From Neospora caninum Liverpool (Eukaryota; Apicomplexa; Conoidasida; Eucoccidiorida; Sarcocystidae), in NCBI RefSeq assembly GCF_000208865.1, contig NC_018390.1:4668270-4732269 (forward strand): a stretch of DNA of 64,000 nt, written 5' to 3'. The notes beneath the pieces were generated by a model. It made no database searches. It had not been told where the DNA came from and saw only the letters and a list, made by a program, of their open reading frames with translations. This document shows, piece by piece, positions 9,301 to 37,019 of the stretch. Position numbers and translations under genes: made by a program. Numbering within the stretch: the first letter of the stretch is position 1; the number at the start of each line of letters is the position of its first letter.

Positions 9301-10366
9301 ATTGGGTCTCCTCCAACTCTCGCACGTTCGCGCGGTCGCTGGTGGGCCCGTCTGGAAAATCGCTCTCGCTGAGCTCCCTCAGGGACAGCGCCCGCCTTGA
9401 CGTGGCCGAGCGACTTCGCCGCTCTCGGCGGCTCGACACACTCGACCTGCCTTGCCTTCTCTGTGGCCTTCGTCGCAGCCTCCGTCTCGAGTCCACGAAT
9501 CCATTTTCCATGATCTGATGCCGCGGAATCCGCCTGCCCTCTTCATCTATACAGGGGCGACCGGACTCCCGACAGAGTGGACAGATCCACGGCCCGCTGT
9601 GGTCCACGCGAGACGGAAAAAGGATGCAGCACGCGCGATGGTACCGCTCACCGCAGAACTGGTCCTCACACACGAGGATGTTGTCGTCATTGTGGACGTT
9701 CTGACCGCAAGCGGGGCACTTCCCAGATCCATAAACATTTTCGACAAGGGCGATAAGGTCGTCAGAACTATCCTCCTCTAGCTGCGTATTCTTTTGATCC
9801 CGTTTCCGAACTGGTACTAGAGTCTGTCGCTCGCCTGTTCGTGAATAGCGCGCCAACCAGGAGAACCTGGACTTGCACTGGGGGCAAGAATTCTCCCTCG
9901 TGCAACCCCATTTTTCGATGCAGAAATGGTGAAAAACGTGAGTGCAGCCGGAGATCAAGCCGAGAGGCAGAAGAGACGGCGGGGAATATGACAGTAAGCC
10001 GCGTGAAGAACGAGCAGGTGGTGGCAACCGAGACGGATTTCGCTCGGGGCGAAGAGACGTTGAGGAGGAGGATGGATAACGGGAAGACGAAGGATCGCCG
10101 AGAGAGAGTTCTTCAACAGGACTCTCCGAAATCTCGATGAGAACTTCACTCGGCGAGGGTTTCGTGGCAGTTGTGTCATGGCTAGTGTGATGCCCTTCTG
10201 AGCAATGGTCATCTTGGAATTCCCCGAGACACACGCCACATGCGAGGTCTAGATGTAACCGAGAACGTGGCACCACTTCGGGGAAAACCTCCGTCATCAC
10301 ATAGTGCTTCGTCAGGCGCTTCTTCGCCGCAGGTTTGTTCCTGGCAGGCGGTTGTGAAGTCGCCAT
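6366..10366 (-). CDS. PHRF1-like RING and PHD finger protein with SRI-like C-terminus
   Basis: Four exons join in phase (9113-10366, 7146-9039, 6792-7003, 6366-6620) to give about 1204 residues. From the chosen ATG at 10366, a RING begins with C43-x2-C46, but the second half (C141-x-H143-x2-H146-x2-C149 ... C161-PQ-C164) follows only after a 94-residue Ser/Pro-rich insertion. A PHD finger follows (C217-x2-C220 to W260-x-C-x2-C265) with the expected His-Arg-Ala-Cys core. Then comes a low-complexity region with a very long Ser tract. The last exon (about 85 residues: VKQLVKPQLKAQRW, then a Lys/Arg helix) resembles the SRI-type RNA polymerase II CTD-binding helix at the end of PHRF1 and SETD2. 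Established for PHRF1: E3 ligase and PHD reader linked to Pol II. Inferred here: a nuclear chromatin or transcription-linked E3. A start 44 codons upstream (10498) is possible but less likely. The exon 3 acceptor is strong (a run of T then AG). Confidence 0.75.
8375..8640. repeat. GAAGAC/GAAGAT-type low-complexity tract encoding poly-Ser
   Basis: About 265 bp made almost only of GA-rich triplets on the plus strand (TC-rich on the coding minus strand). In frame it encodes a near-continuous Ser run with scattered Ala and Leu inside the PHRF1-like protein. An internal block of about 60 bp (AAGACGAAGCCGAAGAAGAT and its continuation) recurs, suggesting slippage growth. Read in other frames it mimics an acidic or lysine-rich protein, which is an artefact. 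Confidence 0.9.
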
Positions 10367-12369
10367 CACGTCCAAACTCCACAGTCTAGTGTTTCCTTCC
10401 CCGACCGTCTCAAAAACATGACATGCCTCAACAGCGGCAACGTCTGACCGACGCCCATCCCGAGGACAACACGGATGGAAACGGCAACTCGGGTTCAAAT
10501 CAGAACGGAATGAGAAGCGAAAGTATTCTTGTGTCTCTACCGGTCAAAGGCAGAGACAAATACGAATCAACGAAAGGTCAAACATGAGGCGAACTTGACT
10601 GAACTACAGGGCCTTGCTTTCCCGAGCCAGCTGAAGCGTCGCGTGGCAACTCGTGGCCGTACTATAATTCCTCGAGGAAGATGCAGAGGGCAGTCTACGT
10701 AAATGAGAAGGGAACATCCGCAAAAAAGGCAAGAGCAGCTACGAAGACATCACCGACCAGCTCAGAAAGGAACTACTCATTTCATTGGTCGCCTGAACGC
10801 GGATACTAACGCGCAAAATCGCGCTGTCGTGACAGTTCGTTTCCTACTTCTGTCAGGCAGCTCTTTTTTCCGCGACGAATCTGGACGAGTGCGGCAGCTG
10901 CTGCAGAGAGCTATGGCATGTAGATCTCTATAGGAGAACACGCGTTTCTCCTCTTACCCTTTTTAAACCTTAAGCGAAACTCGCATATGGCCGGCGCATG
11001 TGAAGAGACACTGCGGGTGTGGACTCTACTTGAATATAAAGGGCCTCTCCCTTCAACTCTTTAACTCCCCGTGCTCCCCGCCTTCCACGTGTCCGCGATG
11101 TTTGTGACCCCCCCTCCCCCCCCGACTGTAGTGCGATAGGCAACCGTAACAGTGGTACGTGTGGTCTGTGACAGTACCAGAGAAACGCGGTTTAAGTGAC
11201 GCAGTAGAAGGGTCCATCATTACGAATCCACCCCAGATGTGTATTTCATACGCCATACAATTGTCTGTGTTGCTTGCGAATTCCGTGCTAGATGCAGAGC
11301 GGTAATTCTGCACTTCTCGTGTTGGCGGATAGGGAACCACGCCTGGTATGTATGATGATACATGGTCGTGGCTGGGTTGCTGGCCTAGAGAGATATGGAC
11401 GACGGGCTAGCCGGTGGCTGTTCCGATGTGCCGCCCTCTAGGAGCCTGCTAGTGGTGGTGGCAGCAGTACGTCGCAAAGGCTTTCAAAAATGCCGTGTTT
11501 TTAGTAATCAAGAACAACTTCTACGACTTCCTCCCTGTGGCGCAGTTCTCCTTGGGAATGATGATCCCTTTTTTTCGAGTCATGCTATTTCCGAGAAACG
11601 GGCGCGTCGCAATGCATAATCGATGTTGTCGTGTGAATTCCGCCTGATCTCTGCATATAATTTATGGGCACACCAGAAAGTGATCACATCGCTGCTGCTG
11701 CCGTCCAACAGCCTCGTCTTTTCTGAGTGCTAGGGGCACCGAAACGTCCACGACCACCGTTAATCATGCAGTTCGTACGATTTGGATTTGGTGTAGTGAC
11801 TTGGTGAGCACGGTGCCCGCACTTAGGGCTTTAGCCCCGATTGCATAAGTACTCGCGAAACAGGTTTGGTGACACGATTCTCATTTGTTTCCCCCCTGAA
11901 AACGTCCAGATATTTCCGCTCGCGGACGCAAAGTGATTCCGGTTAACGTTGTGTACAAATCTGGCAACAGGTACTTCTTTTGTTGCGGCACGGTACTGTT
12001 GGCCTAGCTGTACAGTGACTCTTGTTCGTAACCTCCTCACTCGGAAGCTTTCCCCATAGGAAACGCGAGACGTTTCTCCTCTTGAGCGTTCAAACGTTTG
12101 CAAGAGTTCAGTCTCCAGTCTTCTATGACATGACCTACTGTTTCCCATTCCTGAACGACGAATCGTGGCATTCTTTTTCGGACGTTGGCAAAACGCAGGC
12201 TTTCCCTGTTGCACTTTGTACATCTTCCTTCGGAACTTGTTTTCAAGAGTCACTGTGCTCTCTTCTTGACGTTCGAAGGCAAAAGAAAGCCTGACTGGTT
12301 TAGGGCGGGGTTATTTCACCTTCCCTTCGTTTCACTCTTTAAAACCGTGCCCCGTCTGCCCGGTGGACC
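10367..12369. promoter_or_regulatory. Divergent intergenic region between the PHRF1-like gene and a secreted-protein gene
   Basis: The flanking genes are transcribed away from each other, so both promoters should lie in these 2 kb. Short frames occur on both strands without matching splice signals. I see a C-rich tract near 11108-11121 but no motif I would name with confidence. Confidence 0.5.
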
Positions 12370-19959: not shown

Positions 19960-21363
19960 TACCAATGACCCGAATGGCATCATTAATAAGACATCGCGTC
20001 ATTCTGTAACATATCAAGGTCCTAACGTCGAAGGTCCGATGGCACCAAGAAAGAAGCCTCGTATTTTTCGCATACAGTGTGACAACGAGGTGAAACCGCA
20101 CGCCGTTCGTGATTCCCGGCCTCGATCACCCGGCATGTGAAAGAACCGCGATACAGCCTCATATAGCCTTTCGCCGTCAGCGCCTCTATGCCTTTTGTTT
20201 TTCAGGGTTAATCACAAACCAGCGTCTTTCGTGGCTGAGAGAAAGGCACACCGCTTTTCCGTCAGCTCTTCCTGCAGTGAAGTCAGGCCTCCTGAGAGGG
20301 TGAGTTGTGGCCCTCCAAGAGTGCCCTATCTTCTCGCTGGTTGCGGCAGAGCGACGCGCCGAAATACAGAAGCGCAAATAAGTATAAGTACCCCTCTGTG
20401 TCATAAGACTATTCGCTTGTTCTCGCCCGTTCTCAAGTACTCTGTCGCATTCGTTGCCCCGCCCTACATTGTGGGTCGGCGTGCGACCATGTGGCGACGC
20501 ATGCACACAGCACAGACGCCGGGATGTGTGCCCATTACGATGTATAATACCTCTTTTACCTTCCCTTCTTGATGCATTTGCTTGTAGTACACATTGGAGC
20601 AGTTGGTGCGCGCCATCTGTGTAACGCGCTCTGTGGTCCGGTACAAGTCTCGATGTGTTGTCACTGTGGGCAGGTTAAACCGCCGGTATGCCTCGACTTG
20701 TACAGAGGCTGGTGATAAAACGAGTGGCCGAGTACTCTGTACTCTCAACATATTTTTGGCCTGTTGGTAGTGCTGACTACGAAATCCGTGGGTGTTTTCA
20801 GCGGTATCAGCCACGGTGTGCTGCTACGATGTGGAACGAAAGTCTCCGTGATCCTGTGGGATCCGCTGAAGTGGCCGCTGTACTTCTGTCTACAGTCTTC
20901 TACCACTCTGACGTCCCGGTGATTGAGACTAATTTCCGAACTGGGAGGATACATGAATATTTTTTTGGAACTCGCTTGCCGCTGTACAGAAACTCGGCAG
21001 GGGAGTTCCGAATTGCTCTCCCCTTTCCCTCTTTCGCTGCTTGCTGAAACTCCGATGTGTCTTCTGCCATTGCCAAGCGTAGTCTGGCTAAACCACATGT
21101 GGCTTGGGTTCTCAGTTTCAGCCGCGTCTCTTATGGACGTTCCCAGTCACAGGCCTACGGGCGGCAGAGTCCCTGGAGACTTCTTCTTTCCACAAGGCTT
21201 ACCACTGTATGCAGGATTCTCTTCGGCGCAAGTGCACTAGTGCTCTTTGAGGTCTTCTCGCTCCATAAAGAGCCAGTTAACAATTGTACCGACGACCTTG
21301 TACGGGACAGTTTCTTCGCCATGCGCATTGCTAGCGCTATCAAGGGACCAACGCTGGCCCGGA
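19960..21363. promoter_or_regulatory. Intergenic region upstream of the release-factor-like gene
   Basis: It lies between the stop of the 344-residue protein and the chosen start of the RF1-domain gene, both plus strand. Moderately long plus-strand frames occur at 20195-20572 and 20688-21047, but they lack convincing splice partners or domain content. They may be UTR or unrecognised upstream exons. Confidence 0.4.
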
Positions 21364-23377
21364 ATGAAGGTGCAGAGCTTCACGTTTCTGGACTGCGTAT
21401 GTAGCGCGTCACTTTTTCGAAAGAGGAGGCTATCCACATGGGTTGCTTTCCTTTTTTTGACACTGTGCGGATTTTGTCGTCTCGCTCGTTTCCAGTCACA
21501 CTGCTTGAGGATTTCTGATCTTGGACGACACTCATTTGCACACCTTCAGTCGCCGAACAGACTGTCCTTACTCTTCGCTCCTCACGGTAGGGAGGAAAAT
21601 GACTGTTTTGTGGACCGAGCTGCGCCTCCGCATCTGGGCGTGAGGCACCATGCCCACCAGCACCGACACTCGCTTTCCAGCGGATCACGGAGTTACCGAT
21701 ATCCAATAAAACCATCAAGCCGTGCGGCGTTCCACGAATTCGACGCATTCTGTTTTACGAGCAAAGAGGTGCGACTATCAAGCATCACTAGGGAGTCTCT
21801 TTCAGTATCTTCCCCGCAACTTCTTCCTGGTACTGAAGGAGTTCCCGCGTTCTTTTCCTCCCGTGGCCTGTCTGGGTGCTTCTCCGCTGGATCGTTTTTA
21901 CAGACCGTGGCAAGCTTTCGGTTTCGCTCACCCTCACGGCCGCAACGTCCACGTGGCAGGTGGAATGATATGCTAGCACCGCCGAGTGCCTTGCCGCTCC
22001 TTCAGAGCACGAGCGGCCACCAGTCTGTCTTCCCTGCCTTGCTAGAGAGGTCTGAAACGAGACCCGCTGTGTCCTCCCTGCACCACAGGGCGCCGGTTGA
22101 TTTTCGAGAAGTACGGCACTCGACGTCGGGCGGAAGTCTCGTAGCTCCCACAGACAGAGACGGGTTCCTTGCACGAACAGATGACGCGAAACTAGACCCT
22201 CCGGAGAATTCGCAGGAAGCATGTCACCTGCCGGGTTCCGAGAGAACGTTCCAGTCCAGTGAGACAGCGGACCTCCTGTGCAGCCGGGGAGGAGAATGCT
22301 TGCTGGATCGTAGTGTGTGGGCTCGAAAACTTTCTGAATTTGGCACCAACGTGGAAGACGTGGTAGAGCAATGCGTAAAAGGGGGCGGGAAAGGAGGCCA
22401 GAAAATCAACAAGACAAACAGCTGCGTGGTGATTGTGCACCTTCCTCGGGGTCTCGTAATTCGCTGTCAGCAGAGCAGGTAAACGTCAAGCGTAGAACGG
22501 CTTCGCCAGAAAGACCGTGGTACGGGAAGAGCATCTGCATCCTGGTCGACCTGCCACCCTCTTTCGATGGTCCTGGTGCAAGCAAACGAGTATTGAGAAT
22601 GCTGGTTTACTGGGCGTGCTTTCCTGAATTCGACGTTGCTCGGTGATGTGAACATCTTGAAACACATCCGTAATGGCCAAACGCTGCACAGTACTTGTTA
22701 CCTTGCACTGTTCGCTCGTCCTGTCTCTCTTGACCAAGCTTCCTCAGGCCCCGTCTCTGGTTTTCTACGTTCGTGTGCTTTTTTCCGGTGGGCGCCGCAT
22801 CGCTGTGACGTGGAGCGCAGGTAGACACGCCCATTTTTTGCTGTCTCATGTGTTACCATGTCCTTAGGTCCCAGCGGAAAAACCGGATCCGCGCTCGCGG
22901 GCTCCTCCTTCAAAAGCTGCAGGAATCCCTGCTTCAACACCATCAGCACATCCGTGACACTGAGGAGGTAAACCTTTCATTTCTCACTGACCCAAGTATC
23001 ATGACTGCAGGCGCTGATAACACTCATCTTGCCTGCAGCGCCGACCGAAACAGAAACATGGAGTGAACTTCGAAAGTGTACAGGAGTACTTGCGCGTTTG
23101 GTGCTTCAATGTGATTTCCTCATACGCATGATACAAGAAGTGGAACTTCCAGTTTCTGAAGTCACAGGACATCCTTCCGAGTCGTACGGAACTTTCCGCA
23201 AGAGAAAACGACGACGATGTGTGGACGGAATTTTGTGCATATGCCCTGTCTTCGCAGAAAGAGAGGCGGCGCAACCGCCAACCGACGGAGGCACAAAAGG
23301 CGCGTGTGCGGGCCGAGAAGCAGCGCCATTCTGAGAGAAAAGAGCAGCGACGGAGGATTTCCTCCTTCGATGTGTAG
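21364..23377 (+). CDS. RF1-domain (GGQ) ribosome-rescue factor, MTRFR/ICT1 type, organelle-targeted
   Basis: Four exons join in phase (21364-22478, 22868-22967, 23039-23085, 23203-23377), giving about 478 residues. Near residue 345 is the release-factor signature: VKGGGKGGQKINKTNSCVV, then HLPRGLVIRCQQSRS. GGQ is the universal peptidyl-tRNA hydrolysis motif. No codon-recognition domains are present, as in MTRFR (C12orf65) and ICT1, which rescue stalled organellar ribosomes. The C-terminal exon is the expected very basic helix (KERRRNRQPTEAQKARVRAE). The long N-terminus (about 330 residues) has a hydrophobic segment (TWVAFLFLTLCGFC) at residues 25-38 followed by a Ser/Arg/His-rich, acid-poor stretch, as in bipartite apicoplast leaders. 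Plasmodium is known to have apicoplast and mitochondrial ICT-type factors. An apicoplast or mitochondrial location here is inferred. A start 39 codons upstream (21247) is also open. The third exon's ends are the least certain. Confidence 0.82.
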
Positions 23378-24846: not shown

Positions 24847-26627
24847 TCAAGTCGTAGCCCCTGCGGGTCTGGCGTTGGTGTAGAGATCAGTCTTCTCCGT
24901 GGTCGGTTGGTATTTCCAGCGCGCCTTCTGCTCGTTTCGTGCACGGGCTCAGCGAGAATGAAACACCAGGACACGTTACCTTCGAAAAAGAAGACGGAGC
25001 GGCCGGGAAAAGAGTCTCGTCTTCACGCGCAGACAAAAACGCAGGTGTCTCAGCGCTACCCCCTCTTCGAGCTCCGTGAACGGCCTGCGATCCAGCAGCA
25101 AAATCCCTAGCCTGTAAGGCGCGACGCACTCTCGGAGTTTCCCCCCGCAAGAAGGAAGTCTCCCGCGGGGAGGAATGCTCGCCTGGCAGTGCCCCGTCGA
25201 CGGAGGTCTGGTGTGCTGGCTGTGGCGTCGCTGAGCATGCGAGCGGAGACCCTGGCCTGCTGCGTCCCTCCGCCGCATAAACGACCTGAAGGAACTGCCT
25301 GTGAGGCGCGAAGCATTCTGTCTTTCGGGCCTCTTCTTCGTTTTCTTCTTCGTCTTCCCTCTCTTCATCATCGTCGGCAAGGGCAGGAAGAAACTCGCAT
25401 TCGACAACTGGCTGGAGACGGCCTCGGCGGCCTCCATCGCACAAAGAAGGTGGCCAGACCAGATCAACAGTCTCCGGATCTTTCCGAAGAAAGAACGCAT
25501 GGCTCCGCACTCTTTCCTTTCGTTGCCCACGGGCATCTGCCGCCGGCTCAAACCCCTCTGGAAGCGCCGTTTCAACTCGTTGGAGACGCAAGTGCCTGTC
25601 AACCACCCTAGCCGTCTCCGTCCGCTCTGTCGATCGCACCGCCAACTGGCTGACGAGCAACTCCTGCGAGACGTTTGTCGAAGTCGGAGACCTGGCGCCG
25701 TGGCAAAGTTCAAGAGTTCCCCCGGGTGTCTCCCCCGCAAAAGCCTGCTGCTCCTCCCGAGAAGCACTTTCCTCGCCCTCCCTCGAGGGCGCGTTTCCGT
25801 GTTCCGAGTCTCGTGGAACTGGAGTTCTCGGCGACTCTCGATGCTCCGCAGAAGACACTTCGTCGTTCCCTGAGGCCTCCTGAACGGTTTCCCCTCCTCT
25901 CTGGGCCGCCACGGAAGATCCGGAAACGCGAGACGGAACAGTTCCCAGAGCCGAAGCGCCGCGGCCGCCTTCCAAGTCCGCAGGTCCAGGGTCAATGAGC
26001 ATCCACCCGTCCTCTTCAGGCTCATCGAGCAACGAACAGACTGAGGGAAGACCTGAGAAAGCTACAGAGACACATTCACACAGCTCCCATGCTATTAGGA
26101 AGAACCCGGGACACCGCGGCAGCGATGGCACAAAACAAACAAAAGGCTGCTTGCATCGCCGTGCCGGAAGACATGTGCAAGCCTGTGTGGATATGCATGC
26201 GTGTGCACCTTTGTCGCGCTTGCAGTCCCCGAGCCTGAGTGGCACGTGTGCTGGATACGTAGGCAAGGACGAGCTGAGGCATTCTGCGAGGTGCGCCCTA
26301 CGGACCGGGCAACTCAAGGGACGTTGGCCTGCGAACCACACGCTTCGCGCGTTTTTCCAGGCGAGAGGTCGCACCTGCAAGCATTTCGCCACTCGCGGCG
26401 TGTTGTTCGTCACCCCTCGCGACGCGTCCGTCATCACGCTCGCCTGCATGTCGATTTCCGCCTGCGGCTCCGCTGCGCTCGAGGAGGACGATCGAGCCTC
26501 TTTGCGCTGTCGGCTGCTCAGAAGAAAGCTCGGGCGTTCGGGCGTTCTGTCTGGAGACCGGCCCCGTTGGAGAGGCTCGACCCCACATCGCTGCGCCAAG
26601 GAGCAGGAGAGGAGGGAACGACTGCAT
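24847..26627 (-). CDS. Disordered protein with a canonical ATG8-interacting (LIR) motif, TP53INP2-like
   Basis: Three exons join in phase (26375-26627, 24980-26040, 24847-24927), giving about 464 residues. The second exon opens with LLDEPEEDGWMLIDPGP. This is a textbook LIR: acidic residues, then W97-M-L-I100. It closely resembles the VDGWLIIDLP LIR of vertebrate TP53INP2/DOR. The rest is Arg/Ser/Glu-rich and mostly disordered, with an acidic run (DDDEEREDEEENEEEA) in the middle and a short tail (KARWKYQPTTEKTDLY) in the last exon, which is better conserved in appearance. Known: LIRs bind ATG8/LC3. Inferred: this is an ATG8 partner; homology to TP53INP is not proven. The exon 1 start is uncertain. 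The frame from 26627 begins MQSFPPLLLLGAAMWG, which could be read as a signal peptide, so a start at the second Met would suit a cytosolic ATG8 binder better. An Atg14-like gene lies about 2 kb upstream on the same strand. Confidence 0.58.
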
Positions 26628-27295
26628 CGTGGCGGAGAGACGGCTCCAGCCAGCTCCGCCGCCAGGCGCCCGCGACGGCGCGGCTCCGCGCAACCAACGC
26701 GAGGACCGCGGCGCTCTGCGGGCACTTTCGGGCCCTGCGTGCGGCCGGAGGTCTGCGCTTCCGAAGGACGAGAGGAACCTGGGAGAGCACGCACACCCCC
26801 CAGTGAGGGACACAGCGAGGAATGCGCAACGGCACGGAGAACGGGTAAAGGTCGAGCGGACGCTGCAGGGCACGCGGCAAAGCAGCTGCCCAGCCTACAC
26901 CTGATCTCCTGGGGCTGAAACCGACCCTGTCTCTTTCGCCAGGGACGCACACCGCTCCCGAGTGTCGAGTATTGAGAGAGGTGACTCGGGAGAAGGGGAG
27001 AAAGAAAACGAGGAAAGTAAAACAGGCGTGCCTTCCCGGTGGCGACTCTGAGAGATGTCTTACGGGCCACACGCTGAAAACGCCTCGGAATTCATCAACG
27101 CGGCGAGGAGCGCCAGTGTGTCGCCTGCGCAAAACAGGTAGAGAGTCGGGGGATTTCACGTTCCCAACAGAAACGCATCGCACGCGTGGCAGCCTAGACG
27201 GCTTGGCCGGCATGAAGGGTACCCAGTGAGGCGCCGGCGTCCGCTGGGCCTCAACGATCTCCCTTCACCGCACTCGAAGACTCTGCGGTCCTGCC
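26628..27295. promoter_or_regulatory. GC-rich spacer between two minus-strand genes
   Basis: It holds the putative promoter and 5' UTR of the LIR-motif gene and the 3' end of the next gene. Long frames on both strands reflect high GC and lack of stops rather than coding. The LIR gene could have an additional upstream exon here. Confidence 0.4.
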
Positions 27296-28625
27296 TCACA
27301 GGCGACAGGCACGAGACCACCATGGCGGTGTCACCTGGAGTCCGTGTGTTTTTGCCTTTTCGAATTCGTTCTCCGACTTAAACTTCGCAACAGCTGTGTC
27401 CAGGTTTGGTGCACCTGAAAGCTTTACTTCTCCGGCCAGTCTATACGCCTGGCACAGCTCCACCGGAGGCATAAGCCGTCGTGGTAAGCGAGGCCGTCGA
27501 GCGACGCAACTTTTGCTTACGCCAGATGGCCGCAGGAGGCAAGACGCCTTCCTTGCCCAAGTGAAGCGCGAGGAGATCCCAGTTGAGCAGCTGCAGGGTC
27601 GTCTGCAGCCTCTCGAGCTTGACGTCGCCATCAACCGCACTCAAGCGGAATGCTTCTCTGCAGGTACGTGAAAGAGCATACAGAGAGGGAGACTCGAAGA
27701 CAAGGTTTTTATGCACACCGTGCACTGAAAGCAAACCTCGCTCGTTTCGGAAAGGGCCAGGCGAGCAAGCTGTTCCCCTCTCCGCTGGGGAACGTACGCG
27801 ACAGACGCCCAGAGATCTACACACTTGTCTGCCTTCTCAAGGCCGGCACGCCTCTGCGCCGGAACAGGGCAGAGCTTGGCGAGTGTTTCTGTTTGTTGCC
27901 AGTGGCCAGACAGGTCCTGGGGAACGTTGATTAAATCCAGGCTGTTCCCTGCTTCGTTTTCGTCTCCCGCAGCCCCGAAAGTGTTGCGGTAACAAGACAG
28001 CGCCGGTGAAGCGCGCTTCCGTGCAGGGAGAAAGCTGCGCCCCTCACTCTCCCCCTTTCCTACGCGTCGCCTAAGTTGCGCGTCTCCCGCTGTGGTGTCG
28101 GCAGCGCTTATATGAGAGACGGGAGTGCCGCCCTATCTACTCCTCCCTACATGGCACCCTACGTATTCGAAAACTCCCAGGCTCCTCTATTCCACGTTTC
28201 CAAGCACCCCGGGGCGACCCCACACACTCCCTCCTGTGGCGCGCTGTGGCAGCTGAAAGAACGCATTTCGGGCCCACGTCGCTCACGCGAGGATAGGAAG
28301 ATAAGGGGGCCAAGGTTGCCTATGCACCCGACCGCACTTGGAGACAGGGGGCAAACAACTGGCTGCTCTGCACCAGAAGCACTCGCGGTCTTCCCGCCGC
28401 TCGACCGCCGCTCCCCCCAGCTTCGTAACTGTCCGCAAATGACAGTGTTTTATTTGCGCGCACCTCGGGTGGACTGACGCACTCCCAGGTATCCGCACAA
28501 ACACACTCCGGGACTTTCACCAAGGTTCCGGCGACCAAACCGGCACTTTGGGCACACGCAGGTAGCGAGAGGCTCGACAAGAGACCGTGCCAGGAGCGAG
28601 CGCCTGACCCACGTCCACCAAAAAT
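27296..28625 (-). CDS. Unrecognised gene, partially reconstructed
   Basis: Three exons look real. 28521-28625 follows a TCGTCTTCAG acceptor and encodes FLVDVGQALAPGTVSCRAS then YLRVPKVPVWSPEP. 27521-27657 encodes EAFRLSAVDGDVKLERLQTT followed by LQLLNWDLLALHLGKEG and ends at a GTAAGC donor. 27296-27414 encodes RAPNLDTAVAKFKSENEFEK and ends PPWWSRACRL-stop. The last two join in exact phase. The first cannot join the second directly, because the junction would create a stop, so at least one exon between 27.66 and 28.52 kb is missing and the 5' end is unknown. No family recognised. The short helical segments would suit a small mitochondrial or complex-subunit protein, but that is a guess. Confidence 0.45.
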
Positions 28626-28730
28626 CTGAAGACGAGTCAGGTGAACGGCGCAACGCGAGCTGTCAGCAGCTTTTCTGGCAGCCCTAAACCGCACGCATTC
28701 ACCGCAAAAGCGAGATGTCTCTCGATTTAC

Positions 28731-31700
28731 CTACCCAGTGCCTCTGTGGACAATGATTGCTCGCGCGATGCGGAAGTCGACGTTGGCGGCCTCTGCGCAT
28801 CCCCCTTCGTCTTCGGTCTCATCGCCGTCGTCTTCACAATGTTCCATTCGCCACGAAGCTGCAAACTCCTGGGCACCACTGGTATGTTTCTTTCCGGAAA
28901 CTCGCGTTGCGTCTTTCCCACTCGCTTCCTCGAGCGATGCTTTTCTTCCGCAACCACTCGTTTCCACGCCGCTTTCCTCCTGGCCCAAAGTGAAGCGGCC
29001 GTACCCTCCTGACGGAGACTCGAGCATCTCCGCCTCCATTCCTCCGCGCATTCTTCGACAAGTTTCCATCTCCATACGCGCCTGCGTGTCTCTTGCGAGC
29101 TTCTCTGCACTGCTCGTCTCGTTCGGCTCCTCTGGAGGCCGCCTGGAGGCACTGGCGTCCAAGCTTTGCACTCGCTGGGCCTCCCTCTCTGTATGCGGGT
29201 GATGAGAAAAAGGAGACAGGCCCTGGGAGGGCGTGGACGCCTGGGCTGAGGCGGGAAACCTGTCCCTCTGACTCTCCTTTTCGCCGGTCTCGTCTAGCTT
29301 CGCAGGCTTCGTCGCCATCGGTGTCGCTGTCTCTACGGCGGCGGAAGAGTCGCCGCTGTCGTTGCTCCGAGAAGACCCTGGCGCATTCCATTGGACGGGG
29401 CGCCATCCACAAGCAGACAGCCTAGCCACGCCGTTGCGGTCGCCGAGCCCTTCCGCTGTTTGTTGCCCTCGCTCTCGCCGCCCGTGCGCATCAGCGCTGC
29501 TTCCAGGCGCCTTGTATGTGTCCTTCGACGAGGCTTCGTCGCTGGGCACGCGCTTCAGGCTGCCAGCCAGCCCCCCGCAGCTGTGCGTGGCCGGAGTCTT
29601 GGTCTGCTCCACGGCGAGAAGAGACGAACAGGGGGACGGGGAGGAAGACGGCGTCGATGTTGGGGAGAAAACCCCAGAAGCGCCCAAGACCTCCCGCGTC
29701 GCGTTGTCGCCATTGAGAATCTGGCGCCACACCAGAACGTCTCCCCCTCGTCGCGTCCCCGTTCCCCGGTGTCTCGGTGCATTCCCGTCCTCTCCGTCCG
29801 CCTCTTCTCTCAGTGACTGAGAGACCCGCCCCTCCCCGAAACCGACGTCGAGTCTCCTACTCCCCCCACGGAACGCCGCCTTTCTCCGCGACGCCTGGGC
29901 AACTTGTCGGTCCCGAGCCGCTGCCGCAGCTGCCGCCATCGTGGCGCCACTCCACGAGAACAACGGCAGCGCGGGTCTTCCTCTGGGTTGGCCGGTCGAG
30001 GCATCTTGGCCGGCAGTCGCTGCTGGAGACGTGGACAACCGGGAGAAGACCGCTCCCACCTTTCTCGACATAAAAAGGGTTTTGTTTCCGGTCACCTCGA
30101 ACACTTGCGTACTCCCTTCTCTGCCCCACCGGTCCTCTCGACTTGTTCGCGGAGCCGCCATCCCTGCGGATCGCCCGTCGAGTCGCCGGGCGGATCTCGG
30201 GGAATCTTCCCCTTCGCCTGAAGTATTGGGCGCAGAAGGAGAGAACGAAGAAATGGGCTCGAGCCTGCAGTCTCCAGGGCTCGACTCCCGGTGAGGACCC
30301 CCCCTATCTGGCACCTTCCCGAGTTCTGGAGTCACGGCCCCAGAGGCTCCTTCGTCCCTACCGACAGCAGAGAAGCGTGGTGCGCCAAACGCCGGAGTGT
30401 CGTCTCTCTCGCTCGTGGCGCCGCCTCCTTCGCAGTCTCTTTCCATCAGCTGGTCTTCTTTCCAACTGACATCGACTCTGTTCCCCGCTGTTCTCTGGTC
30501 TATCGCCCGTCTCTCTTCCGCACGTGTCGCCACGGGCACAGTGGGTTCTCCACACACGCCGCAGCCGAGGAGCCGAGGCGAGAAGCGCGCGGCTGCGGGC
30601 CCAACAGAATGGAGGACAGCAGGGAGGCGCTCTGCGAGAAGCCGAGCCAAGCTGCGACCGCTGAAAACTGGGCTGTCTCCTCCATGGTGGGGCCGCTGTG
30701 GCAAGCGCCGTGAGAAACCACTTCGAGCGGCTGACCCCCGCAAGAGCTCGGCTGCAGGAGGGAAGAGACTGTCCACTACAGACCAGCGACTGCCTGAGCT
30801 CCCTCGGCTCTCGTCAGTCCCTTCCTCCGGATGCGAGGATGACGAGGATAGCGACAGAGGGTGCCTTCCCGGAGCCAGGCTCCCGGGAAAAGGCGCGGAA
30901 AGATGGAAATCCGAGGGAGGGGCGTTCACGAGGAGACAACCGTCTCCGGGATGCGAGGCACGGTTTTCCAATAAAGCCCCAAGGCTTTGCCCGTCACGCA
31001 CCTGAACCGTCGATGTGTCGGGAACGGAAGAAGAGAAGCGCGAAGGAGCAAGGGCCTCCTCTCTTGACACCCAGCTATCCGTAGGTGAGGAACGGGGGGC
31101 TACACGGCGTGCGTTTCGAGCGGGGACGAGCGTCGCTGCTTGTTGCAAGGAAGAAGGCGGAGGACAAGGCGGGGAACAGCACGACGAATCGGAAGGAGTG
31201 CAAGATCCGGAAGCACCGGGAGAGAGAGACGACGGAACAGGTGAGCTGGAGTGCGTGTGTTGACCAGTTGGTGTCCCTGTCTCAGCCAGCGATGCCCGCG
31301 CCTCGGTTCCGTTCTGATCAGTTCTTCCTGCGCAGTCCGCCTCCAACCGTGTCGGCGCCGCTGCACGTTCACAGGGTTTGTCTTTGCCGTTCGCCAAAGG
31401 CAAAGTGCCTCCGTCGGACCCACGTCGTTCGCTCCCCCCGACTCGCGCCGCTGCCAGATGGGCGACTGTCCCACCGCGTTGCAGAGGTCGCGCGCTGCCT
31501 GCATCCGGAGATGGAGCAGTCGATTGTTGAGGCGTGCGTCCCCGTCCCAAAACACTCAGAGACAGAGCTGCGGCCGAAGACGAGGGCGACAGCCAAGACG
31601 AACCGTCCGGGCCAGCAGAAAAAGAAGGGGCTCCGAGAAGGACGGATCCCTCTTGCGTATCACTCTGACCTGGAAGTGTCTGCCGCGGCCACGTGTTTGG

Positions 31701-34700
31701 CGGCCTTTGCTTCGTGCCAGTGTCTGTACGGCCTTTGTTTCGATCCTGCTCATGCACTTGCCGCTCCCCCAGTTCTGTCCGCGATCGCCCAAGCGCGTCG
31801 TCGTTCGGTCGAGGGCCCGGTATCTGCGCGTTTCTTCCGCTGTCGCCTGTCTCGGCCCTCAGAGCCATCTCTGGAGCGGCGGCGGGGTCTCCCCCGTCTG
31901 GCGATCCCAGTGGGCTGCAGGATGACGGAGGGGCTGCTGACGTCGCAGGAAAATCAGCGGAGCTCCGCTTGACTCCTTCCAATCCCGTGATGCCAGTTCC
32001 CAGTTGGACACTTGGTCTCCGCGAGGCCCCGCTTCGACAGGCGAGACTGGCCCGAGAAGAATGCTGCAGGTGATTTGAAGACGAACCTCGCCGGAGGCGG
32101 GATTTCCTCTTCTGTTGTTCACTTGGAGACGAAGAAGGCAGGAGGTAGACGGGAAAAGGCAAGAGGACGTCGAGGTAAGAGGCTAACGCAGCGACAATGT
32201 AAGCCAAGAGATTGAGCGCAGCCTGCAGGTCAAGCAGCGCCTCTTTTCGAGATGAGAAGAACGGTTCTGGCTTCCACAGACCTCCATCCAAGGACGAAAC
32301 CTGAGTCCAAGTCCCTTTCTTTTGATCTTCCTCGTTTTCCTCGTTCTCGCCTCTGGGCAAGTCACCCGGCGACACACGAGTGCCCAATGGGGAAGCGCCT
32401 TTTTCTGTTTTGTCGAGTCTTGCAACTGGAGATGCACCACCCGTCACGGCTTCGGGTCCGCACGCCTTGCAGGCTGAGTTGCCCGCGCGCTCGGACCGCT
32501 GAAAGGCAAACAAGCCGAGGAGCTCTTGACAGCGCAGTGCACGCATCTGATAAAGCGCTTCCTTCGTAATGCGCAGTTCTGCCGAGACATCACTGAACGC
32601 AGAGGGCCCCGCACCAGACACCCGGAAGGGGGCGTCGACGAGCGGATGCCTGTGGTGGGGAATCCGGAGACCGGACGGCGCCGCGAAAGACGAATGCGGG
32701 CGTCCCAACTTCGCCAAAGGGTCGAACTCTTCAGAGGCCTCATCGCCGCAACTGCGGCTGCTGTCTGCCGCGTGTTGGGTTTCTTGAGCGACGGCTTTGG
32801 CGACGCGGAGGAGGACTTGGAGAGGCACACTGGCCACGCCCTTTCCCTCGAAGAAATGGCTTTCGCCGCAGTGATCGACCTCCCACAGAACTGCTTTTCC
32901 TTGCACATGCGTGAAGGCTGGGGGCCCTTCTCCGTCGCCCACTCTCCTTCGCACGCAGTCGTTCAGGAGACAAATGACGTTCCGGCGCAGTCGTTGAACG
33001 TGTGCTTGGAGCAGCGGTCGTCTGCGACGCACGTCGGACACCTGTCGCCTGACAGACTGGAGGGTCGACTGTAGCTCGGATACGGTCGGGCGATGCAGAG
33101 GGCCCCGTGGACTCCTTCCGCCAGCCTGGCGTTCACTTAGAGCCTCGCTTGCTGTGAGTAGTCCCCAGGTCGGCTCTCGCGTGTCTTGCAGTTGTCTAAA
33201 ATCTGCGATTCCCTTCAATCGGCCCGGATGCTCGCCACGTTCCGCCTCCGTCTCAAAATTTCCGTTCTGCGTTCCTCCTACAGACACATCGACTTCATTT
33301 TCTGTTGTTCTAGACCCTCTACCGCGAAGGCCGTCCCAGGTCAGTCCCGTGCGCAGCCCTTCCTCGCCGCTGCCAACCGTGAGCGTAACCCGATCACTCA
33401 GTAAGGAGGACCGCGTGTGTGAGCTTGCGGTTGCGGCCTCGTCGACTGTAGGGACTTCACTGACGGCACTGCGTCGGCTCAGTTGACTATACGCACTCAG
33501 AAAACTGCTGCGTCGGCTGGATATAACCACGTTCCCCTCCGGATCTTCTCTGGCTGGACAAGATCCACAGGGGCTTTCTGCGAAACATGAACGTTCACTC
33601 TCGCTGGAAGACTTCCTTTCCCTTCTTGACCCGATGCATTCTTTCTTTGACAGCGTATTGTTTTCTGCCTCCTCAAGTGCCTCCGGTGGAAAAGAAGCGT
33701 CTTTCACAGGCACGAGCGGACCCTGCAGTTTAGCGAGACGTGCATCCACTTGAAACGCTTGGTTGTTTCCTACCCTCTCATGTCTCCCGCCAGTGTGATC
33801 CAGCTCGGCCTGGAGACGGTGTCTGATAGCCTCAATCGCCTGCCTCTGCTTTCGTAGCCTCTCTTGAAGCTCTCGGACTCGTATTGCAGAGCACGGACCA
33901 CAATAACGAGCGAATTGTTCTTCTGCTACAAACTTCTCCTCCTCTCCCGCCCTTCCGCAGACCGGACATCTCAACCAACATGGCCCTTCGTCGCTTCCGC
34001 GCCTTGATTCCATGGACCTGACTTCATCGCAACGGCGCCCCTCAGTCACGTCTTGTTTGCATGCCGCGGAGGTTCGAAGCTCCGCATTACCTTCCTCTGT
34101 CCCCCGAGACGGGAGAATCTCGTACGAACCGTCTGGTAGCGGCTGCTGCGAATGCAGAGTCGGAACGCCTTTGACGAGTGCGCCGGTCATCCCCAATTGA
34201 AACGCAATGGATTCGCGCGCCTCAGGCGGCTGACAGAGAGCCTGACCTGCCCACCGAAGGCATTCGGCGAGATCGCCTGTGGAATCCCCTGCTGCGGCCT
34301 GGACAGCGCCACGGACAAGCAGAGCCCCTCTACCCTCCGCTTGCTGAAGTTGTTCCATCTGGAAGAAAACCCGTTTGTCTTGCGCAACTGTTTGCTGCTC
34401 GGAGAGCGCGCTGCCCTGTGTTCCTGCAATGGCACGAGGTGAAACAATGCCGGCCATGGGGCTGCATGAAACGTGACGACCTGCAGCGAGATCCACGGGT
34501 GCCCGGTAAGTTCCACGGCCATCTGATTCCAAACCTCGCGTACGGGTCTCTATAACTTCGGAGAAACGAACTCGAGGGAAACCTTCACACGGGCGCTGAT
34601 CCGTGAGCCCTTCAGGTGGAACGGCACGCTCTAAATTTGAGAAACTTCCACCGTGCTGTCCAGCTTCAACGGCAAACTTTTCCGGGGGAGGAATCTTACT

Positions 34701-35249
34701 GTGACCGGCCTCAAGCTGCAGAGGCGTTACAACAGGATTGCGTGCCTCAACCGTACAGCAGGACAAAGGGTTCTGTGCCCTATCATATTTACAGTTACTC
34801 ACATCCTCAGCTGGCAAACTCCGCCGGAAGTCCGCCTGTCTACCGGCCCAAGAACAACCCACAGAGCATGCGGAGGTGGAATCTCCTGTATCCTGCCGCT
34901 CGGACTCTAAGCTGAACTCTGCCTCCATTGTATTCAAGGTCTTTAGCCCGCCCACTGGCCCACAGATATCCACAGGCGGGGTAAAATCTTCTGGTGCGTG
35001 AGATCTTTTGACTCTTAAGTGCACGGGACTGCTGCTCTGTCCTCTGTGCATGGCCGCAAAATTAGGAAACCTCTCAGTAGTCAAATGCTGATGCTGTGGG
35101 GTAAATTCAGACGGGGGACAGTCAGGTTCACAAGATCGGGTGCGAGGGAAGGCAGGTGCGCCTTTCCTTTGCAAACAGAACCCACTGCAAGGCTCGGCAG
35201 GACTGACCGATCCGCGTATCGATTTCCTATGACGACGTGATTGTTCCAT
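28731..35249 (-). CDS. Atg14/UVRAG-like candidate subunit of the Vps34 complex, giant disordered form
   Basis: One open frame of about 2172 residues from the ATG at 35249 (the frame stays open 48 codons further up, with an ATACAG acceptor just before this ATG). Ordered islands appear in the order expected of Atg14/UVRAG. A Cys knuckle, C428-PV-C431 ... C450-GP-C453, runs directly into a coiled coil (RVRELQERLRKQRQAIEAIR). A second coiled coil near 720-770 is VSELQSTLQSVRRQVSDVRR. Near 890-915 is ELRITKEALYQMRALRCQEL. Near 1003-1035 is LNLLAYIVAALASYLDVLLP followed by FPVYLLPSSS, which matches the hydrophobic-helix-plus-PFP segment of the family. The remaining 1100 residues are Ser/Pro/Arg-rich, with a modest ordered patch at the C-terminus (FRIARAIIVHRG). 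Known: Atg14 and UVRAG/Vps38 define the autophagy and endosomal Vps34 complexes. Inferred: this is the parasite counterpart. Alternative: an unrelated coiled-coil Zn-knuckle protein. Confidence 0.58.
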   Translation of the reverse strand: MEQSRRHRKSIRGSVSPAEPCSGFCLQRKGAPAFPRTRSCEPDCPPSEFTPQHQHLTTERFPNFAAMHRGQSSSPVHLRVKRSHAPEDFTPPVDICGPVGGLKTLNTMEAEFSLESERQDTGDSTSACSVGCSWAGRQADFRRSLPAEDVSNCKYDRAQNPLSCCTVEARNPVVTPLQLEAGHSKIPPPEKFAVEAGQHGGSFSNLERAVPPEGLTDQRPCEGFPRVRFSEVIETRTRGLESDGRGTYRAPVDLAAGRHVSCSPMAGIVSPRAIAGTQGSALSEQQTVAQDKRVFFQMEQLQQAEGRGALLVRGAVQAAAGDSTGDLAECLRWAGQALCQPPEARESIAFQLGMTGALVKGVPTLHSQQPLPDGSYEILPSRGTEEGNAELRTSAACKQDVTEGRRCDEVRSMESRRGSDEGPCWLRCPVCGRAGEEEKFVAEEQFARYCGPCSAIRVRELQERLRKQRQAIEAIRHRLQAELDHTGGRHERVGNNQAFQVDARLAKLQGPLVPVKDASFPPEALEEAENNTLSKKECIGSRRERKSSSESERSCFAESPCGSCPAREDPEGNVVISSRRSSFLSAYSQLSRRSAVSEVPTVDEAATASSHTRSSLLSDRVTLTVGSGEEGLRTGLTWDGLRGRGSRTTENEVDVSVGGTQNGNFETEAERGEHPGRLKGIADFRQLQDTREPTWGLLTASEALSERQAGGRSPRGPLHRPTVSELQSTLQSVRRQVSDVRRRRPLLQAHVQRLRRNVICLLNDCVRRRVGDGEGPPAFTHVQGKAVLWEVDHCGESHFFEGKGVASVPLQVLLRVAKAVAQETQHAADSSRSCGDEASEEFDPLAKLGRPHSSFAAPSGLRIPHHRHPLVDAPFRVSGAGPSAFSDVSAELRITKEALYQMRALRCQELLGLFAFQRSERAGNSACKACGPEAVTGGASPVARLDKTEKGASPLGTRVSPGDLPRGENEENEEDQKKGTWTQVSSLDGGLWKPEPFFSSRKEALLDLQAALNLLAYIVAALASYLDVLLPFPVYLLPSSSPSEQQKRKSRLRRGSSSNHLQHSSRASLACRSGASRRPSVQLGTGITGLEGVKRSSADFPATSAAPPSSCSPLGSPDGGDPAAAPEMALRAETGDSGRNAQIPGPRPNDDALGRSRTELGERQVHEQDRNKGRTDTGTKQRPPNTWPRQTLPGQSDTQEGSVLLGAPSFSAGPDGSSWLSPSSSAAALSLSVLGRGRTPQQSTAPSPDAGSARPLQRGGTVAHLAAARVGGSERRGSDGGTLPLANGKDKPCERAAAPTRLEADCAGRTDQNGTEARASLAETGTPTGQHTHSSSPVPSSLSPGASGSCTPSDSSCCSPPCPPPSSLQQAATLVPARNARRVAPRSSPTDSWVSREEALAPSRFSSSVPDTSTVQVRDGQSLGALLENRASHPGDGCLLVNAPPSDFHLSAPFPGSLAPGRHPLSLSSSSSHPEEGTDESRGSSGSRWSVVDSLFPPAAELLRGSAARSGFSRRLPQRPHHGGDSPVFSGRSLARLLAERLPAVLHSVGPAAARFSPRLLGCGVCGEPTVPVATRAEERRAIDQRTAGNRVDVSWKEDQLMERDCEGGGATSERDDTPAFGAPRFSAVGRDEGASGAVTPELGKVPDRGGPHRESSPGDCRLEPISSFSPSAPNTSGEGEDSPRSARRLDGRSAGMAAPRTSREDRWGREGSTQVFEVTGNKTLFMSRKVGAVFSRLSTSPAATAGQDASTGQPRGRPALPLFSWSGATMAAAAAAARDRQVAQASRRKAAFRGGSRRLDVGFGEGRVSQSLREEADGEDGNAPRHRGTGTRRGGDVLVWRQILNGDNATREVLGASGVFSPTSTPSSSPSPCSSLLAVEQTKTPATHSCGGLAGSLKRVPSDEASSKDTYKAPGSSADAHGRRERGQQTAEGLGDRNGVARLSACGWRPVQWNAPGSSRSNDSGDSSAAVETATPMATKPAKLDETGEKESQRDRFPASAQASTPSQGLSPFSHHPHTEREAQRVQSLDASASRRPPEEPNETSSAEKLARDTQARMEMETCRRMRGGMEAEMLESPSGGYGRFTLGQEESGVETSGCGRKASLEEASGKDATRVSGKKHTSGAQEFAASWRMEHCEDDGDETEDEGGCAEAANVDFRIARAIIVHRGTG

Positions 35250-37019
35250 CTCCTGTATGTATAAACATGCTCGAGGGAAGGAATATGGCTTCAACAACCT
35301 CAGGCTCGCCTGTACGGCAGCAGACACATTCAAGGTCCATCGCAAAACTGGATGACAAAACTGAGGGCAGTGCGGTAGATCGACACGCGACACGGTAAAT
35401 AATACCCATATCGGGCCAATCTCGTCAGGCGCGAGAACCTACGCCCCAGAAAGGCGTTCCTGGCACTGAAGGTACGCGGTTCCCATCCTCCCGCCTCACA
35501 AGCTGAGAAAATTCTTGCAGGAGGAATCGACGGTTGTTGTGGATCCTTCTCGGTAAGAGTATGACACACTGAGATGGCTTAAGTGGCTTCCGTATTCTAC
35601 TGGAACCGCCACAATGAGGAAAACTGGAGACCTTCGTCAGCCTCTACGAAAAGCGAATTATTACCGCACAATCCTGTTCCTGAGACATTTCGCTGCGACC
35701 GTAGTTTCGCACACCGCGGAAATCGCGTTAGTACCACGGCGGACAGCACTCAGGTCCGCCGCTTGTTAGCACAGGGAAGCGTGCTGAGGGGAATCCGGAA
35801 AAAAGACATTCAATTCCCTGTAGTGTCGCGGAGGCAATAACATTCATAAAACGCTCTGAGTACACTATTCCTACAGATAGCTGTGCTACTAAGCACAATT
35901 CCCCATGACGCAGTAGTTGCACGGCTCCGCGAAACACCACACCCACTACTAGTCTTGAAACGTCTCAGCAGACTTCGCGATGGCGTCGTTGCCGAGCGGA
36001 ACCAAAACCACATAGATTTCAAAAAGTTAGTAAACCAAAATACTCCGATTCTTCAGCCAGAGTTCGCCCCTGGTTTCGTCTACCATCGCGACGCGACGCT
36101 ACAACGGATTCCAAGCAGACAAGCGACTGTACACAAAAAGCTTGAGGCTTCGATAGTTGCTCGTCCACCAAGTCGCAGTGCTTGAGGCCGACTCATAGGA
36201 AGGACGGTTCACAAATCTTCCTTGCCACTATCTTGCGTCGATAATTTTCGATTGTTTGCACTGGATTCGCTCGCTTTGCTACCCTTCCCGTGGTCCTTTT
36301 ATATCAATTTAGGGCTGACTAGGGAGTCGCATGTTCTACGCTTTTTGACCATTGCAGCCGACGATAAGCGGAGCTTCTGAGGCGCCTCCCCTGGAGCTGT
36401 AGGGTCGGAAACACACATACTTGCGAAGCAAGTGGCGACAATCACTCTTCTTCCCAACGACCCTAGTGGCGAGAAAACTCTTTACGCTGTCTCGCAACTC
36501 CTCGCTGGTTTTTTTATTGAAAAGTCACGAGGTAGTTAATTCAGCGCGATTGACAGGTTCGACTGGGAGCCGACCCCTTCCCTCGCTAGCACGTAGCCTA
36601 ATTCATGCTGCTGCATAGACTAGTGATTCCTTTAAAGTGGAGAAGGCCAAAACAAGTCACTGTTAACATTTTCATGCAATTCCTTCGGTAGATGAAGAGG
36701 ACACTCCTATCAGCAGTACGATGTACAGTCTCAAGAACAGTGGCTGCAACTGTCGCCGCAGAGCCAGCCGTTGCTCTTCCGCATCAGACACGAACTAGAG
36801 AAATGACAGAATCCTATGATTCAATGTACTCAGGAGATTGGGTGTAATCAAACCACATAGTTCAAAGGGCTACCAGCATGAATGGCGATCCATGTGTTTG
36901 TGTCAATTCTATCACAGGGTCTGCCACTGGTCAGTCATAAAACCGTTTCATTGCTGCAGCGGCAAGCACGTTGTGCATAGCCGGACGGTCATTTTGAAGC
37001 ACCCACGCTTGAAATCTTC

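Follow-up and report, generated by a model that had tools for sequence, protein, structure and literature searches.

The window analysed here, the whole 64,000-nucleotide stretch of Neospora caninum Liverpool DNA (contig NC_018390.1, positions 4,668,270 to 4,732,269), carries on its minus strand a five-exon gene whose product is probably (rough probability 0.72) an accessory subunit of ATG14/UVRAG(Vps38) type, strongly diverged in sequence, in the coccidian class III phosphatidylinositol 3-kinase (PI3-kinase), or Vps34, complex. In other eukaryotes, a subunit of this type steers the lipid kinase Vps34 to membranes; UVRAG/Vps38 is a subunit of PI3KC3 complex II and ATG14/Barkor a subunit of PI3KC3 complex I. 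The resemblance to the ATG14/UVRAG family appears faint. An Atg14/UVRAG identity had been proposed by a first-pass annotation of this DNA, and it is partly supported by two results: PF10186 (ATG14/Vps38) was the best Pfam family in all four species compared and for their consensus, and the C-terminal alignment to UVRAG was above controls in all four.

The gene product is closest to P0001, a protein named in Neospora caninum as a "conserved hypothetical protein", and the orthologs identified, Toxoplasma gondii 206380, Hammondia hammondi HHA_206380 and Besnoitia besnoiti BESB_056380, bear only hypothetical or uncharacterized names. When the four orthologs are aligned, identity clusters in short blocks, which follow one another in the order: knuckle and coiled coil 1; coiled coil 2; DVSAELRITKEALYQMRALRCQELLGLFAFQ; ALLDLQAALNLLAYIVAALASYLDVLLPFPVYLLPSSS; an insert of about 1,110 residues; VDFRIARAIIVHRGTGEAFRLS…LQTTLQLLNWDLLALHLGKEGVLPPAAIWRDTLALLAALM; a stretch with SRLSATMQSFPPLLLL; and EEDGWML. 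Relative to Neospora, the three orthologs have 91, 93 and 75% identity over the three C-terminal blocks combined, compared with 56, 56 and 36% for the same three species in the best local alignments of residues 400–1140. The conserved elements, in window positions, are as follows.

33891..33968, minus strand: CPVC-x18-CGPC knuckle (CPVC at residue 476, CGPC at 498–501), in an ATG14-like place directly before coiled coil 1
33792..33899, minus strand: coiled coil 1, residues 499–534 (AlphaFold helix; predicted local distance difference test score, pLDDT, of 62–89 in its 10-residue blocks)
32937..33083, minus strand: coiled coil 2, residues 771–819 (AlphaFold helix of 49 residues; pLDDT 49–70 over most of it)
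32505..32603, minus strand: helix SAFSDVSAELRITKEALYQMRALRCQELLGLFA, residues 931–963, matching UVRAG ...IRCRQLLSELSY by hhalign and pairwise global alignment (AlphaFold pLDDT below 50)
32124..32252, minus strand: SRKEALLDLQAALNLLAYIVAALASYLDVLLPFPVYLLPSSSP, residues 1048–1090, matching UVRAG and ATG14, with several alignments placing the segment alike in both
28794..32123, minus strand: insert of about 1,110 residues (1091–2200) within the candidate domain, poorly conserved in the four-species alignment apart from short motifs
28735..28793, minus strand: end of exon 1, EAANVDFRIARAIIVHRGT(G), from the four-species alignment and exon tracing
27521..27657, minus strand: exon 2, EAFRLSAVDGDVKLERLQTTLQLLNWDLLALHLGKEGVLPPAAIW, matching UVRAG (exon tracing; hhalign)
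27064..27124, minus strand: exon 3, RDTLALLAALMNSEAFSACGP, matching UVRAG RQTLPNLKNFMEHG (exon tracing; hhalign)
25997..26017, minus strand: EEDGWML near the C-terminus, present in all four orthologs

The four cysteines of the knuckle are invariant in the four coccidian orthologs, and the region of the first cysteine aligns to position 1 of the PF10186 profile. The layout described in the first-pass annotation was borne out by these elements. The knuckle does run straight into a coiled coil, abutting the well-predicted helix 499–534, and the second coiled coil with the subsequent helical and PFP segments is found as low-confidence helices, among others at 771–819, 931–963 and 1048–1077, followed by LLPFPVYLLP. 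The suggested dilution by more than 1000 residues corresponds to the approximately 1,110 mostly unconserved residues of the insert. The site of the insert is the loop of UVRAG between its LRYP segment and FPLYPKGG, and the flanks of the insert align to the neighbouring parts of UVRAG by hhalign; the remainder of the candidate domain is encoded by the conserved sequence in exons 2 and 3. By eye only, EEDGWML resembles TDWENLPS in the tail of ATG14, a protein with a membrane-binding (BATS) domain at its C-terminus.

For the Pfam scans, conservation and the domain judged likely determined where each block began and ended, before any scan of the joined blocks, yielding insert-free constructs of 326–328 residues per species. 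PF10186 was retrieved with E-values of 1.4e-5 (Hammondia), 1e-4 (Neospora), 0.0021 (Toxoplasma) and 0.013 (Besnoitia), corresponding to scores of 15.0–24.8 bits, and the consensus construct matched it at E=1.5e-6 (28.0 bits), with the next family at 0.19. Ten decoys were built in which the knuckle cysteines and prolines and the heptad positions were kept; their best E-value against any family was 0.0049, about 3,000 times poorer than that of the consensus, and one of the ten touched PF10186 (E=0.02). PF10186 was matched neither by two reversals of the whole construct nor by one block shuffle. Replacement of the four knuckle cysteines with serine in the consensus lowered the score from 28.0 to 15.2 bits, with PF10186 still the best family. 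The knuckle with both coils from Besnoitia retrieved PF10186 first (15.9 bits, E=0.0073, profile 1–100), and a Toxoplasma construct lacking the knuckle and coil 1 had PF10186 as its sole match (E=0.14, profile 99–230). In Hammondia, shuffling or reversing the C-terminal blocks lowered the intact score of 24.8 bits to 17.4 and 17.6, respectively (a loss of about 7 bits), and exchanging the first two blocks left 9.6 bits (E=0.61, profile 147–230); the third and fourth blocks mapped repeatedly up to position 230 of the profile.

The C-terminal region was compared with UVRAG by profile and pairwise methods. With hhalign (-M 50), the construct and UVRAG gave one alignment of 163 columns with 30% identity, which included all three C-terminal blocks in order (nominal E=0.021); its score of 24.9 compares with a 99th percentile of 23.8 and a maximum of 25.0 in 200 column-shuffled nulls. 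A joint ATG14/UVRAG profile gave scores of 19.1 with the C-terminal blocks (95th percentile of the null, 19.0) and 26.4, without a matching null, with the full construct, and two further small alignments recovered the same segment (residues 1048–1090) at E=0.13. The family profiles used were shallow and narrow: among the 120 of 819 ATG14/UVRAG matches listed, those bearing an organism name are vertebrates. In global alignments of the C-terminal blocks to the C-terminal domain of human UVRAG, block shuffles were as good in 3, 0, 0 and 0 of 1000 cases for Neospora, Hammondia, Toxoplasma and Besnoitia, respectively, and the local alignments were equalled by 2–16 (BLOSUM62) or 4–32 (BLOSUM45) of 1000 shuffles. 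The z values for UVRAG were 3.3, 3.6, 3.6 and 4.8 in the four species, and none of 99 decoy targets (reversed UVRAG and 98 segments from translations of the window in every frame, with none that overlaps the blocks) was as good, the highest decoy reaching 2.8. Human UVRAG and human ATG14, which are true relatives, gave z=5.0. The four species are closely related, so these tests are not independent. The hhalign and global pairwise registers agree at RCQELL, AALNLLAYIV and LLN and differ in parts between them; in exon 2, the LLN segment was aligned alike by both methods and the stretch before it differently, and in exon 3 only TL was aligned alike by the Neospora global alignment and hhalign.

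At the level of sequence alignment, these comparisons support, for the candidate, a coiled coil followed by a BARA-like C-terminal domain, although the AlphaFold model of the exon 1 half gave separate helices only. The N-terminus looks ATG14-like and the C-terminal domain UVRAG-like. The hhalign alignment brings together, in the same order as in UVRAG/Vps38, an RCxxLL helix end, an AL-helix ending L-(D/Q)-V-x-L-x-(F/Y)-P, FxL..G, LLNxxxxxL and TLxxLxxxM. The candidate differs from UVRAG/Vps38 in carrying a CxxC knuckle, in having an insert of about 1,110 residues in the C-terminal domain and coiled coils broken by poorly conserved sequence, and in showing no match to PF17649, which is the second Pfam domain in most full-length UVRAG entries among the matches listed and was absent from the Pfam matches of the open reading frame (ORF; E up to 10) and of the exon 5 frame (E up to 0.01). 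With ATG14/Barkor it shares a paired CxxC immediately before the coiled coil (CPLC-x8-CAKC in the human protein, CPVC-x18-CGPC in the candidate), a helix aligned by hhalign, and PF10186 as best family; however, the C-terminal blocks as a whole were not above shuffles against human ATG14 in most tests.

A narrower assignment, to the endosomal complex II as a subunit of UVRAG/Vps38 type and not to the autophagy complex I as an ATG14, is a tentative possibility. It is suggested by the C-terminal blocks, which exceed shuffles against human UVRAG and hardly do so against human ATG14, and by the long hhalign alignment being to UVRAG. However, CxxC...CxxC before a coiled coil is an ATG14 feature and contributes much of the PF10186 score, as the fall from 28.0 to 15.2 bits indicates, and PF17649 was not found in the ORF. 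It is more doubtful that coccidia have no ATG14/UVRAG-type subunit other than this protein, which would then serve a single merged Vps34 complex. The mixture of an ATG14-like knuckle and a UVRAG-like C-terminal domain would fit such a role, and no second candidate emerged from the genome (57.5 Mb, 14 contigs), in which PF10186 had a single weak match elsewhere (E=2.34) and a piece of human UVRAG had none. Nevertheless, both genome searches also missed the present locus, so a second diverged gene could escape them in the same way.

Several results weigh against assignment to the ATG14/UVRAG family, and some of them would fit an explanation that we consider unlikely, in which the gene product is a coccidian scaffold unrelated to this family that has a zinc knuckle and coiled coils, and the PF10186 match reflects coiled-coil background and analyst-chosen blocks. 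Scanned intact, the ORF had no Pfam match with an E-value of 10 or below, two pieces of it gave no PF10186 match, a search of the PDB with the whole ORF yielded nothing useful, and the genome search with PF10186 did not report the locus. The profile match above background that the first-pass annotation led us to look for was obtained once the inserts were removed, but it stayed below the curated cut-off of 33.2 bits, which no construct reached (human ATG14 scores 207.3 bits), and the profile–profile match was weak; the protein is not counted as a Pfam member and stands as a candidate diverged relative. A tighter construct of 258 amino acids with shorter linkers weakened the E-value to 0.0083, and the C-terminal blocks alone matched no Pfam family. 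The knuckle with coil 1 alone did not match PF10186, and in Toxoplasma the knuckle with both coils scored 14.5 bits (E=0.019, profile 1–98), placing PF10186 second to PF24460 (0.013). With the knuckle and coils reversed, the Hammondia construct scored 14.6 bits (E=0.018, profile 108–230), second to PF09486 (0.0081). When the Hammondia C-terminal blocks were joined in the wrong order, the score was still 23.1 bits (E=4.6e-5), and the match extended past the coils into the wrong block; the Pfam score is thus no proof of the order of the C-terminal blocks, and our confidence in the assignment was lowered from 0.75 to 0.72 for this reason. The C-terminal blocks add only about 7 bits in the intact construct, most of which the wrong block regains. 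The main statistical weakness is that the significance of the PF10186 match depends on the choice of linkers and that most of the Pfam score comes from the knuckle and coils.

Further points against the assignment come from profile–profile and structural comparisons. With hhalign (-M first), the full construct aligned to UVRAG only at the LDVLLP helix (E=0.029). Across the hhalign comparisons, E-values ranged from 0.0094 to 0.3, and the match is weak and dependent on settings. The C-terminal blocks alone scored 16.5 against UVRAG over 104 columns, a score within the null (n=500), although none of the 500 nulls was longer than 100 columns. Against the ATG14 profile the construct scored 19.4, within the null (95th percentile 22.5), and the pairwise alignments to human ATG14 were equalled by 27–170 (local BLOSUM62), 6–124 (local BLOSUM45) and 131–505 (global) of 1000 shuffles and are mostly not above shuffles. 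Reversed UVRAG gave z=2.4 in Neospora and 1.6, 1.2 and 0.2 in the other three species. Profile searches of the PDB with the coccidian blocks returned no ATG14 or UVRAG; as a yardstick, the family members retrieved with a vertebrate ATG14 and UVRAG profile were all chains labelled ATG14 (Beclin 1-associated regulator) or UVRAG. If the PDB also contains yeast structures of Atg14/Vps38, the negative result there is uninformative. The AlphaFold model of residues 465–1110 with three orthologs, covering the exon 1 half only, had a mean pLDDT of 35.4 and a predicted template modelling score (pTM) of 0.18. Helices, coil 1 included, were present at the expected places, but they were confident for coil 1 only and separate, with no assembled fold. 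Protein and profile searches found no relatives beyond the four coccidia; the search for compact relatives scored only proteins of 0.55–1.75 times the query length sharing 5-residue words, and relatives in Eimeria or Plasmodium could therefore exist despite the lack of a match.

Support for the Atg14/UVRAG identity is thus partial, given the sub-cut-off scores, the dependence on block borders (E=0.0083), the match of the wrong-order construct (4.6e-5), the weak profile–profile match and the absence of an AlphaFold fold, and with the decoy that touched PF10186 at E=0.02 these are the points in favour of a chance resemblance. Against chance stand the margin of about 3,000-fold between the consensus (E=1.5e-6) and the best decoy versus any family, the loss of PF10186 in two reversals of the whole construct, and the C-terminal blocks, which, without both coiled coils, were above controls against UVRAG in all four close species, though not with Pfam alone. 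Still more speculative, and improbable in our estimate, is that a single hybrid subunit replaces ATG14 and UVRAG and directs Vps34 to the apicoplast, autophagosomes and endosomes through parasite-specific disordered regions; if true, it would help to explain the conjugation of ATG8 to the apicoplast. An identity as Beclin/ATG6, whose general plan of a coiled coil followed by a BARA-type domain is alike, was rejected, since PF04111 (APG6) was matched by none of the constructs scanned. A separate Beclin/ATG6 gene exists (G000:C3:295451-297638, PF04111 E=1.9e-8, over the cut-off), and its presence counts in favour of the Vps34-complex reading.

The protein has a CxxC...CxxC knuckle on its N-terminal side, a pair of coiled-coil helices and a divided C-terminal helical region, the pieces of which are alignable in order with the UVRAG C-terminal (BARA-like) domain; to these are added a loop of about 1,110 residues and large, poorly conserved tails. 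As an ATG14/UVRAG-type subunit, it would act as follows. The coiled coils might pair in parallel with those of the parasite Beclin (ATG6), with the C-terminal domain packing beside that of Beclin, and the knuckle, the tail or the disordered regions could bind membrane or adaptors. Vps34–Vps15 would thereby make phosphatidylinositol 3-phosphate (PI3P) on a selected membrane, whether of the autophagosome, the endosome or the apicoplast, and this PI3P may feed ATG18 and the conjugation of ATG8.

PMC10543664 reports that T. gondii and Plasmodium lack obvious counterparts of ATG14L and UVRAG. According to PMC9624415, the homologues of the complex identified in Toxoplasma are VPS15, VPS34 and ATG6 only, ATG6 is seemingly missing from Plasmodium, and TgVPS15 is connected with the formation of PI3P and with apicoplast ATG8. 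The reports on Plasmodium Atg14 conflict: a 2013 review (PMC3962217) states that it has been identified, whereas in a 2014 study (PMC4245143) ATG14 is among the proteins not identified in P. falciparum. The examined text of PMC10104450 and PMC13381302 contains nothing on apicomplexan ATG14. Titles and abstract openings in the open-licence literature, among the matches listed, name no ATG14 or UVRAG in Toxoplasma or Neospora, and the ortholog locus tags (that of Neospora being guessed) led to no relevant paper in this literature. As a named candidate, T. gondii 206380 offers a direct way to test how PI3P synthesis is targeted in apicomplexans. The case also shows how large inserts that defeat whole-protein searches could hide a conserved subunit.

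The gene was delimited by tblastn with P0001 and the Toxoplasma and Besnoitia proteins and by exon tracing, which gave the following structure.

24887..35249, minus strand: whole gene, five exons, with a joined frame ending in one final stop
35249-28735, minus strand: exon 1
27657-27521, minus strand: exon 2
27124-27064, minus strand: exon 3
26778-26375, minus strand: exon 4
26052-24887, minus strand: exon 5

The exon borders are GT-AG, and the five exons join into a single open frame of 2760 amino acids, a length that assumes no splicing inside exon 1. The downstream exons of the window are matched by the models of Toxoplasma and Besnoitia (those tested by tblastn). A minus-strand ORF is present at 28731–35393 (2220 amino acids when counted from a GTG); the ATG at 35249 aligns with the T. 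gondii start and is the start given in the first-pass annotation. The span proposed there, 28731..35249, does hold an ORF, but it comprises only exon 1, and four further exons follow to 24887. The N. caninum model P0001 starts at 34457 and omits approximately 525 in-frame bases (roughly 34091–33567, minus strand) with the knuckle and coiled coil 1, which the models of the other three species retain; this gap may be an annotation error or a retained or alternative intron. In exon 5 (26052–24887, minus strand), a C-terminal block, FF-R---P---DLVWPPSLCDG-R-GRL, is common to Neospora and Besnoitia and missing from the Toxoplasma and Hammondia models, which may have been cut short or frame-shifted.

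Elsewhere in the genome, two PI3Ka (PF00613) matches of identical score lie about 16 kb apart (G000:C1:1797902-1798111 and 1813708-1813917), perhaps reflecting a local duplication, genomic or of the assembly. Within the window, an ORF at 21247–22482 (plus strand) has an RF-1 domain (PF00472, E=8e-11) and belongs to a gene of the peptide-chain release-factor type. The ORF at 9047–10498 (minus strand) has RING and PHD finger matches, all of them below the cut-off (best E=3e-5). Neighbouring ORFs at 56876–62450 (minus strand) carry an IQ motif (E=5.7e-6) together with part of a myosin head that scores below threshold (E=1.2e-5), and are perhaps exons of one myosin gene.

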